Below are positions 1,884-37,930 of a DNA stretch of 64,000 bases, one piece after another (positions within the stretch are counted from its first letter, which is position 1; every line of letters begins with the position of its first letter). The notes below the pieces were generated by a model, which saw only the letters and a program-made list of their open reading frames with translations, was not told the origin of the DNA and did no database searches. Where the stretch lies: positions 1,570,501 to 1,634,500 of the forward strand of contig NZ_CP060718.1 in assembly GCF_014396785.1 (NCBI RefSeq), given 5' to 3'. Source of the stretch: Sphingomonas lutea (GTDB lineage Bacteria > Pseudomonadota > Alphaproteobacteria > Sphingomonadales > Sphingomonadaceae). The position numbers were made by a program, and so were the translations under genes.

Positions 1884-1952
1884 GACGCGCTGAATAGCGC
1901 CGGCCGCGGGGATTTGACAGCCCGCCCGGTCGCCGCCAATCACGCGGGCGGA

Positions 1953-2082
1953 TCAAGGTGCCGTCCACAGGCCCTCGGGCTTGCCGGGGACGGTTCAAAG
2001 GGAAGCCGGCGAAATTCCGGCGCTGTGCCCGCAACTGTGAGCCACGGACACTTCGTCCGCGGCGAAGTCAGGAACCTGCCAT
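1953..2082 (+). promoter_or_regulatory. Cobalamin riboswitch
   Basis: The core matches the cobalamin (adenosylcobalamin/B12) aptamer. An AAAGGGAA segment is followed by GCCGG...CCGGCGCTG pairing. Then comes the conserved GCCCGCAACTGTGAGC box (about 2026-2042), and the element closes with GAAGTCAGGAACCTGCC (about 2064-2080). Known members repress uptake or synthesis genes when cobalamin binds. It sits about 90 bases upstream of the BtuB-like receptor start. The stretch between is GC-rich and could pair over the ribosome binding site, so translational control is plausible. The 5' boundary is approximate. Confidence 0.93.
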
Positions 2083-2174
2083 GATCCATCGTCCGTTGCC
2101 CCGGCCGGGTCCAGCCGCGGGTGCGTGGGCCGCGCTGCCCTCCGTGACGAGCATTTTCGTTCATGGAGGATCAC

Positions 2175-35681: not shown

Positions 35682-37000
35682 GAAGTCAGTCTCGCCAGAG
35701 CGCTTTCGATGCTCAGTTCCTCGCGCTCGCCGGTTGAACGACGCTTTAACTCGACCGTTCCGGCGGCAATGCCGCGCGGGCCGATAACGACCTGCCAGGG
35801 CAGGCCGATGAGATCCATCGAGCCGAGCTTGACCCCGCCGCGCTCGTCGCGATCGTCGTACAGCGTCTCGACTCCAGCCTCCTGCAGCCTGGCGTAAAGC
35901 GCGTCGGCGGCATTGACGGTCGGCTCGTCATCGGCGCGCATCGTCACCAGCCCGACGCGCCACGGCGCAACCGCCTCGGGCCAGATGATCCCGGCCTCGT
36001 CATGGCTCGCCTCAATGATCGCGCCCACCAGCCGCGATACGCCGACGCCGTAGCTGCCCATGTGGGGAGTCACCATCGATCCGTCGCGCCCCGAGACTTT
36101 GAGACCCATCGCCGCCGAATATTTCTCGCCGAAGTAAAAGATGTGGCCGACCTCGATACCGCGCCCGGTGCGCTGCTTGTCCGCCGGAAGTTCGGCCCAG
36201 CGCGCTTCGTCATGGGTTTCGTCGGTCGCCGCGTAAGTCGAGTTCACGCGGTCGAACAGGCCCTGCAACCCCGCCTCGTCGCCATAGCGCAAGTCGGACT
36301 GCTGCCAGTCGAACTCCTCGTAGGCCGCATCGTAGAACACCTCGCTCTCGCCGGTCGGGGCAAGGACGATGAATTCGTGGCTAAGGTCGCCGCCGATCGG
36401 GCCCGACGCGGCCTTCATCGGCACCGCCTGGATGCCCATTCGCTGGAAGGTGCGCAGATAGGCCAGCATCTGCGTGTAATAGCTCTGCCGCGCGCCGGCC
36501 TCGTCGAGGTCGAAGCTGTAGGCGTCCTTCATCAGGAACTCGCGGCCGCGCATCACGCCGAAGCGCGGGCGGACCTCGTCGCGGAATTTCCACTGGATGT
36601 GGTAGAGCGTGCGCGGCAAATCGCGATAGCTTTTGACCTCGTCGCGGAAGAGCGCCGTGATCATCTCCTCGTTGGTCGGGCCGTAGAGGATCTCACGCTC
36701 ATGCCGGTCCTTGATGCGCAGCATTTCGGGCCCGTAAGCGTCGTAGCGCCCGCTTTCGCGCCATAAGTCGGCCGATTGCAACGTCGGCATCAACATTTCG
36801 AGCGCGCCGGCGCGGTCCTGCTCCTCGCGCACGATCTGTTCGATCTTTTTGAGCACACGAAAGCCGAGCGGCAGCCAGGCGTAGATGCCGGCGGCGGTCT
36901 GGCGCACCAGACCCGCGCGAAGCATCAGCTTGTGACTGACGATCTGGGCGTCCGACGGACTTTCCTTGAGGACGGGCAAGAAGGCTTGTGACCAGCGCAT
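35678..37000 (-). CDS. proS: Proline--tRNA ligase (short, ProS type 3-like)
   Basis: This 440-residue class II synthetase charges tRNA-Pro. Motif regions include [41 protein letters not shown] and [19 protein letters not shown], followed by an anticodon-binding domain ([11 protein letters not shown] to the end). It lacks the editing insertion of the long bacterial enzyme, as usual in alphaproteobacteria. The ATG at 37000 ([13 protein letters not shown]) is the family start. It heads the minus-strand run to lolC, lolD, LprI-like and dnaE. Confidence 0.96.
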
Positions 37001-37140
37001 GGCGCCGCGCTGTAGCGGGGGCGCATCGCCGCTGGCAACCGCGACCCGATGTGGCCGGTGCGACACAGGGTGCGCACAAACAACAACACCTGTTGCATTC
37101 ATGGGTGACAGACGCGCCCGCCCGGCTTAGCGACTCCCTT

Positions 37141-37281
37141 GTCCGAACGAACTGGCCTTGGGTCGTGGTTCGGCAGGCGGCGTACGGCAGGGGATGTGCG
37201 CCGCAACGACATCCAAGGGGGCTGACGAGCAATCGTCACGCAGGACGCCCGGACCGCTGGTCGGTCCGGGCGTTTGCTTTT
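37141..37281 (+). ncRNA. Candidate structured small RNA ending in a strong terminator
   Basis: The gap between proS and the first WGxxGxxG gene (37001-37351) has no credible gene. It holds four hairpins in a row on the plus strand. They are CCGAAC/GTTCGG (37143-37148 and 37168-37173), GCGGCG/CGCCGC (37177-37182 and 37199-37204), and TGACGA-GCAA-TCGTCA (37223-37238) with a GNRA tetraloop. The fourth is the terminator at 37245-37281. No protein-coding transcript on this strand is available to use that terminator, so a free-standing RNA is the best reading. It matches no class I recognise (not SRP, 6S, tmRNA or a known riboswitch). The 5' end and promoter are not defined. Confidence 0.5.
37245..37281 (+). 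terminator. Intrinsic terminator of the candidate RNA
   Basis: An 11-bp perfect stem, ACGCCCGGACC (37245-37255) with GGTCCGGGCGT (37263-37273) and a 7-base loop, is followed by TTTGCTTTT. This is the most canonical Rho-independent terminator seen in the window. It lies upstream of the next gene, whose Shine-Dalgarno is at about 37340. Confidence 0.85.
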
Positions 37282-37351
37282 GCGAAACGCGGTTGACGTC
37301 AGGCTGCCCTTAATGGACACGCATCCCACTGTTCGCAAACAGGAGGGAAGC

Positions 37352-37573
37352 ATGCGCAGAAAACTGACAGTTGCGTTGCTGGCCGCGGCAGCTTTCGCGA
37401 TCACGCCTGCCGTTGCTCAAGTCACTACGGACGTTCCACCCGAAACCGTCACCCGCACGGGCAGCGACGACGGCCAGTTCTGGTATAATCTGATCGGGCT
37501 CATCGGCCTGCTCGGGCTGCGCGGCCTTTGGCGCGACAGCGACAATGACGGCTACACCGACGATCCGGTCTGA
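37352..37573 (+). CDS. Small secreted protein with WGxxGxxG-like hydrophobic segment
   Basis: This 73-residue protein starts at an ATG preceded by GGAGGG. A signal peptide (LLAAAAFAITPAVAQ) is followed by a short polar stretch. Then comes WYNLIGLIGLLGLRGLW, a Gly/Leu helix spaced like the WGxxGxxG family but with Tyr-Asn after Trp. An acidic tail (RDSDNDGYTDDPV) follows, unlike the usual short basic end. Function unknown. The next gene is a clear WGxxGxxG protein 42 bases downstream, so they are probably co-transcribed. Confidence 0.7.
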   Translation: MRRKLTVALLAAAAFAITPAVAQVTTDVPPETVTRTGSDDGQFWYNLIGLIGLLGLRGLWRDSDNDGYTDDPV

Positions 37574-37618
37574 TCCGTAGCACAACCAACGTCTGACGAA
37601 ATTTCTTGGAGGAATATG

Positions 37619-37930
37619 ATGCGGTACGCGACCCCGTTGATGATTGCCCTGGCTTTTGCCGTTTCCGCGCCGGCCCTGGCGCAGGAAACCAACGCCGCCG
37701 ACAACGCCATGGCAAATGCCGCCGATCCGGCAGCGATCGAGGCCAATGCGATGGCGGTTGATCCGGCCCTCGCTAACGACGTGGCGATGGCTCCGGCCCC
37801 CGCCCCGGCCACCGATCCTTCGCTTGCACCCACGGCGGCACCGGAGGAAGACAATGACGGCGGCGGATTCCCGTGGGGACTCCTTGGATTGCTCGGCCTG
37901 GTCGGCCTAATCCCGCGCTCGCGCAACTAA
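37619..37930 (+). CDS. WGxxGxxG family secreted protein
   Basis: This 103-residue protein has a signal peptide (MIALAFAVSAPALAQ) and an Ala/Asn/Asp-rich middle with repeated NAxA units. It ends with a DNDGGGF run into WGLLGLLGLVGL and a final PRSRN. The Trp-Gly helix with closing basic residues is the WGxxGxxG arrangement, which resembles C-terminal sorting signals such as other -CTERM tails. GGAGG at 37608-37612 favours the second of two tandem ATGs (37619, not 37616). The sorting role is inferred from architecture. Confidence 0.75.
   Translation: MRYATPLMIALAFAVSAPALAQETNAADNAMANAADPAAIEANAMAVDPALANDVAMAPAPAPATDPSLAPTAAPEEDNDGGGFPWGLLGLLGLVGLIPRSRN

Follow-up and report, generated by a model that had tools for sequence, protein, structure and literature searches.

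Within the window, i.e. the whole 64,000-nucleotide stretch of DNA analysed here, positions 37138-37281 of the plus strand look like a free-standing small RNA gene, with a conserved promoter form, hairpins and an intrinsic terminator. The RNA belongs to an uncatalogued, real-looking family that appears to be spread through many genera of sphingomonads. We consider it probable that it is an independently transcribed, trans-acting sRNA of ~140 nt which, in most of this family, serves as a sponge for the alphaR8 RNAs, the copy in the window having partly eroded. What computation shows is the conservation, the forms of promoter and terminator, the synteny, and the complementarity together with joint change of the two RNAs. 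Antagonism of alphaR8 is likely over most of the range of the RNA and uncertain for the copy in the window.

The putative small RNA gene in the window

The RNA lies on the plus strand of a gap between proS, on the minus strand, and genes for WGxxGxxG secreted proteins. Its parts, in window coordinates, are as follows.

Upstream side of the gap, minus strand: proS, divergent from the small RNA (profile match)
37106-37110, plus strand: -35-like TGACA, putatively the RNA's own promoter, after the promoter pattern in relatives
37126-37131, plus strand: -10-like CTTAGC (CCTAGC or CATAGC in relatives)
37138-37281, plus strand: putative small RNA gene, its start placed from the promoter and its end from the T-tract
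37154-37177, plus strand: where the anti-alphaR8 block lies (family form GGCCNNGGUUCRGGGAGG); the window reads GGCCUUGGGUCGUGGUUCGGCAGG
37177-37204, plus strand: hairpin with AGGGGA (37189-37194) in its predicted loop, the stem sequence being variable among relatives
37215-37221, plus strand: AAGGGGG, complementary to the C-rich loop of hairpin 1 in the alphaR8 RNAs of type P genomes (types are defined below)
37223-37238, plus strand: near-invariant hairpin UGACGA-GCAA-UCGUCA with a GNRA loop
37246-37281, plus strand: intrinsic terminator, an 11-bp stem (37246-37272) followed by the T-tract TTTGCTTTT

Judging from the promoter-like elements, the RNA probably starts at ~37138. A preliminary description of this DNA had proposed a structured plus-strand element in the gap, and this is borne out, since the 150 nt from 37141 have a folding energy of -74.3 kcal/mol, where dinucleotide shuffles give -61.7 ± 3.7 (z -3.4; none of the 200 shuffles as low), and the upstream proS reads the other way. 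The terminator, described there as the strongest of the window, is indeed the best of three found by a custom scan for stems and T-tracts on both strands (-23.2 versus -16.6 and -7.3); a standard terminator scan of 36900-37700 listed none at this position. Of the 'four consecutive hairpins' also reported, the GNRA hairpin and the covarying terminator are conserved in relatives, while the 5′ hairpins are only the local form of a region that varies. Reading frames inside the RNA are unremarkable over 99 loci, where the median longest closed ATG/GTG ORF is 12 aa and 17 loci reach 25 aa.

The names ProS, LolC/E, WGxxGxxG and cystathionine beta-lyase are taken from profile matches (WGxxGxxG scores of 34.7 for WG1, just below the cut-off of 35, and 37.8 for WG2). 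ComF is named after sub-cut-off matches (TIGR00201, 69.8 versus a cut-off of 233.55), and MerR and acyl-CoA dehydrogenase were named by eye. The longest proS frame starts at 37102 (minus strand), but the true start is probably 37000, because the frame from there matches the proline--tRNA ligase model from model position 1.

Distribution and conservation

By BLAST, 35 of 61 genomes have the RNA: the window's own and, in the same genus, 34 of 36 others. The 24 genomes belonging to other families in the order have none. A covariance model of its 3′ core (R1), a kind of search proposed in the preliminary description, scores ≥45 bits in 78 of the 249 genomes of the family, that of the window among them. 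Five of 140 genomes belonging to other families in the class match R1 at E ≤0.001 (best 30.5 bits), and two belonging to other families in the order score 27-28 bits; since genomes outside the family attain 27-30.5 bits, R1 scores below ~40 bits were treated as noise unless accompanied by synteny. A pattern scan of named genomes gave at least 119 matching stretches. R1 supports 72 of the 80 matches listed, at ≥39.8 bits (71 labelled sphingomonads and one 'Proteobacteria bacterium'), and the other eight, with no R1 match in that range, were taken as chance.

In alignment A2 (37 sequences), the terminator stem shows changes on both sides in 8 of its 11 pairs, with 98.8% of the cells paired. These are compensating changes of the kind that had been named as a check on the proposed RNA, and the stems are conserved in homologous gaps. 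The GNRA hairpin, correctly noticed from the start, is nearly invariant: 99.5% of its cells are paired, four of its six pairs never vary and it displays no covariation. The five G of AAGGGGG are likewise invariant in the 37 sequences. Upstream, a loose promoter pattern occurs at 74 of 98 relatives' loci versus 2.7 expected from shuffles, and a strict -35/-10 pattern at 29 of 98 versus 0.1, both patterns having been written after the alignments were seen. With homologues, promoter form and terminator, a small RNA of ~140 nt, as first proposed, is supported by sequence.

That the window's strongest terminator ends this element could also be read as a terminator with chance hairpins and no functional RNA; this is very improbable, as the promoter form, the hairpin and the 5′ block are conserved over many genera and two loci.

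Rfam 15 has no match at 37141-37281 (best 15.5 bits, E 1.4, versus a cut-off of 80), in line with the initial failure to recognise a class. Nor is the RNA described in the open-licence literature on sphingomonad and Zymomonas sRNAs, comF, alphaproteobacterial sRNA families, CrfA or alphaR8 sponges, as covered by titles and abstract openings. 6S RNA (RF00013) was ruled out, the single 6S match of the genome lying elsewhere (G000:C1:1725184-1725339). The window also holds a cobalamin riboswitch at 1939-2097 (plus strand, 74.3 bits).

Two genomic places

Type P comprises 99 loci (98 in the promoter-pattern counts plus L099), drawn from part of the 78 R1-positive genomes. At the 94 testable loci, the RNA is divergent to proS in 66 cases, to lolC in 27 and to neither in one (L033). 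Classification of L280, L281, L286, L287 and L318 was helped by their lolC/proS neighbour; G082 (L147, 45.0 bits), with neither proS/lolC nor comF nearby, was left out. Weaker R1 matches revealed a related RNA convergent with a comF-like gene, which defines type C (29 loci: L149, L151, L155, L158-L160 and 23 of L282-L319). Eleven of 39 weak R1 matches are near neither proS/lolC nor comF and were considered chance terminators (L310 repeats L291).

Type C RNAs have no Rfam 15 match at the eight loci scanned. In type C genomes, where lolC was located and proS was not, no R1 match was found within ~2.5 kb upstream of lolC in 18 of 18 cases; the comF region, inspected in 20 of 20 type P genomes, gave a single R1 match (12.3 bits, E 0.29). 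The two places seem exclusive, although, R1 being weak for type C, a second copy may lie hidden, and we infer that types P and C are one RNA that moved. The family ar45 (RF02347), tried as a comF-linked relative, was rejected: it matches in 3 of 115 genomes, not including the window's, and tblastn with the type C ComF found nothing within 1.5 kb of these three matches.

This synteny bears on the suggestion that the RNA could act in trans or in cis on the WGxxGxxG genes. In the window the downstream WGxxGxxG gene starts ~70 bases past the end of the terminator, as a cis-acting leader or attenuator of these genes would have it. However, of the 33 same-genus loci with flanking sequence, tblastn shows only 3 to have a WGxxGxxG gene close to the RNA, and the other type P loci that were examined have none; relatives keep the RNA beside proS/lolC or a comF-like gene. 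The cis role fails because of this rarity and is hardly credible, whereas action in trans is supported. Not visible from the window's sequence by itself is that in relatives the 5′ half is complementary to alphaR8 RNAs.

Complementarity of the 5′ block to the alphaR8 core

The G-rich motifs of the RNA suggested a partner with an anti-Shine-Dalgarno sequence. A precedent exists in Caulobacter, where the available part of PMC12559287 describes CrfA as a sponge of the alphaR8 RNAs SisA-D acting via the core UUUCCUCCCU, and further reports that SisA represses a large regulon, that alphaR8 RNAs occur in all Alphaproteobacteria except Rickettsiales, and that in other species alphaR8 is located next to an N-formylglutamate amidohydrolase gene. 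In the sphingomonad family genomes, 8 of 20 low-scoring matches to Rfam suhB (RF00519) carry CCUCCCUGAACCUUGGCC, a ninth (L437) carries CCUCCCUGAACCUGGGCC, and the further matches L499, L509 and L511 carry CCUCCCUGAACCUUGGCC too, the RF00519 matches read being part of all matches. This alphaR8 core is the reverse complement of GGCCAAGGUUCAGGGAGG, which is nearly the conserved 5′ block of the RNA. In type P pairs, the block GGCCNNGGUUCRGGGAGG pairs with the core over ~18 positions with one or two mismatches, its variable R facing U.

Of the 61 type P loci outside the genus, 52 have the motif GGTTC[AG]GGG (0.4 expected); it is also found at 6 of 38 inside it (0.2 expected) and at 13 of 29 type C loci (0.2 expected). 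Outside the genus, the block of type P loci scores above its 10 shuffles in 54 of 61 cases. Pairing was further scored in 18 genomes whose fetched RF00519 matches showed TCCTCCCTG with a terminator and whose RNA was at hand. Left out, with no core in the RF00519 matches fetched, were G000, G005, G015, G068, G084, G088, G125, G127, G138, G170, G173 and several genus members (among them G007, G025 and G204); G027, G521, G525, G529, G537 and G542, where alphaR8 was seen, were left out as their RNA was not retrieved.

Across these 18 genomes the mean z of core pairing against shuffles is 4.85, and 15 of the 18 beat all of their 25 shuffles (G203, G074 and G010 do not exceed their own). The RNA is the best alphaR8 match in its 3-6 kb locus, both strands considered, in 16 of 18, with G074 and G010 as the exceptions. 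Cognate pairs score above re-paired partners at the core (p = 4e-5, kinship uncorrected). Whole-length duplex energies also favour cognate pairs (p = 1.5e-4, 15 pairs), the true order being the best of 720 for the six genus pairs, but these energies run into the alphaR8 terminator and were therefore replaced by the local score on the core. Matching changes can be followed individually: alphaR8 of G014 reads UGACUUCCGGCC and its RNA GGCCGGAAGUC, alphaR8 of G004 reads UGACCUUGGCC and its RNA GCCGAGGUC, and within the genus both RNAs depart together from the family norm, e.g. in G014, G375, G004 and G024. Two caveats apply to all this complementarity, namely that kinship is uncorrected throughout and that anti-Shine-Dalgarno cores pair easily with G-rich sequence.

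The same complementarity data would fit the reverse relation, in which alphaR8 targets the RNA and destroys or masks it; according to the available part of PMC12559287, CrfA is itself lowered by SisA in Caulobacter. Against this, the RNA has no standout reading frame and no other output of it is known, and we regard a role as target as quite improbable.

RF00519 (SuhB) has several matches per family genome, e.g. four above cut-off in G068, and those read mostly share GGCAUCCUCUCC. An earlier sponge idea directed at a SuhB-type core, CAUCCUCUCC, was dropped, the RNA scoring 16-27.5 there, which is the shuffle level. Within the genus, GGRGRGG goes with SuhB (5 of 7 versus 1 of 30, Fisher p = 0.0003, kinship uncorrected), but elsewhere it occurs in only 24 of 61 loci (8.0 expected).

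A candidate second site in the alphaR8 hairpin-1 loop

The loop of the first hairpin of alphaR8, in the predicted fold, reads CCCCUU in nine of nine type P genomes outside the genus and in six of six inside it, and CCCCUCAUG in three of three type C genomes. On the side of the RNA, AAGGGG is found at 42 of 61 type P loci outside the genus (11.5 expected), at 33 of 38 inside it (4.4 expected) and at 5 of 29 type C loci, where chance gives 4.3. Conversely, [AG]TGAGGG occurs at 21 of 29 type C loci (1.3 expected) versus 1 of 61 and 0 of 38 type P loci, and [AG]UGAGGG matches the alphaR8 loop in the three type C genomes where this loop was read. A run-length test of joint change at this site gives p = 0.001, with the test chosen after the motifs were seen and kinship uncorrected, and this value derives mostly from the contrast of type P with type C; a gapped local score gives no signal (p = 0.58). 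Two same-genus alphaR8 RNAs have other loops, CCCCUCAUG in L413 (G542) and CCCCUGAAGG in L491 (G027). If the rule for the second site is true, the RNAs of G542 and G027 are predicted to carry AUGAGGG and CUUCAGGG, respectively.

The copy in the window and the invariant core

As judged from its sequence, the window's copy is a partly eroded member of the family, with the 3′ core kept and the alphaR8 block at chance level. The block GGCCUUGGGUCGUGGUUCGGCAGG scores 29.5 against the cores of other genomes, not above chance (shuffle mean 26.4, maximum 31.0). In the window's genome, a non-exhaustive search did not find alphaR8: the best RF00519 match (27.4 bits) is without the core, and so are two more. 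Erosion extends to relatives, as the block is above its own 10 shuffles in 11 of 38 same-genus loci, and in some same-genus species (L431-L434) the RNAs are shortened, their 5′ half being replaced by a likely hairpin with CUUUCCUUGG while the 3′ core is kept. Loss of the 5′ half with retention of the core suggests a function independent of the block. For the window's copy, the sponge role may be an inheritance that has faded, and its core may do something else or more.

Taken further, this leads to the reading that the RNA is a trans-acting sRNA working mainly through its invariant 3′ core (AAGGGGGCUGACGANNNNUCGUCACGC plus terminator), by mRNA pairing or protein binding, with alphaR8 pairing as a secondary activity that much of the window's genus no longer has. 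No part of the RNA is better conserved than this core; its stem does not covary, and it persists in L431-L434 where the block is gone. Yet most type P loci outside the genus have kept the 5′ block, which varies in concert with alphaR8, and the core's own AAGGGGG matches the alphaR8 loop, so that we hold this reading to be unlikely. A fuller version of the sponge, possible although we lean somewhat against it, would have the whole family keep a two-site RNA antagonist of alphaR8, encoded at proS/lolC or comF and changing jointly with its partner at unlinked loci; in the lineage of the window the block would have decayed and the RNA would be kept for a second job of the invariant 25-base core. 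Lineages without the alphaR8 block offer a way to find the role of this core.

Proposed mechanism and related RNAs

In the mechanism envisaged for the sponge, the RNA would be transcribed independently and would meet alphaR8 in the cell. Its 5′ block would pair with the single-stranded anti-Shine-Dalgarno core of alphaR8, and the C-rich loop of the first alphaR8 hairpin would pair with AAGGGG(G) or AUGAGGG in the RNA. Once paired, alphaR8 would be prevented from reaching its mRNA targets, as are SisA-D when bound by CrfA in Caulobacter. That the RNA acts as the sponge and not as the target is presumed, and so is any involvement of Hfq. If such a sponge is kept across sphingomonads, regulation of alphaR8 by another RNA is a general feature rather than one peculiar to Caulobacter, and the jointly changing RNA/alphaR8 pairs form a natural set of compensatory changes.

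The closest likeness is with CrfA of Caulobacter crescentus, which in the available part of PMC12559287 is a free-standing sRNA carrying a G-rich stretch that complements the alphaR8 core UUUCCUCCCU, sequestration of alphaR8 being the postulated effect in both. The likeness is drawn from the description of CrfA. CrfA belongs to another order, the complementarity in the sphingomonad relatives covers ~18 nt plus a candidate second site, and the window's copy is eroded. The proposed partner, alphaR8 (MmgR, SisA; Rfam suhB, RF00519), likewise belongs to the sRNAs of Alphaproteobacteria, but the RNA described here carries the complementary strand and has no RF00519 match. For the SuhB RNA of Sphingopyxis, the available part of PMC6563040 reports a part in carbon catabolite repression, with Hfq. 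Experimentally found sRNAs of a sphingomonad are the Zms RNAs of Zymomonas mobilis (available parts of PMC7064620, PMC6970203 and PMC7566282); four AT-rich genomes taken for Zymomonas (L134, L139, L140 and L152) have a homologue of the RNA, which may or may not be one of the Zms RNAs. Finally, at L058 in G240, ATCCAAGGGGGCTGCGAGCAATCGCGGCCCC forms a terminator-like stem after another gene and resembles the core of the RNA; G240 also has a type P copy elsewhere (L280), and the L058 piece is either chance or captured.
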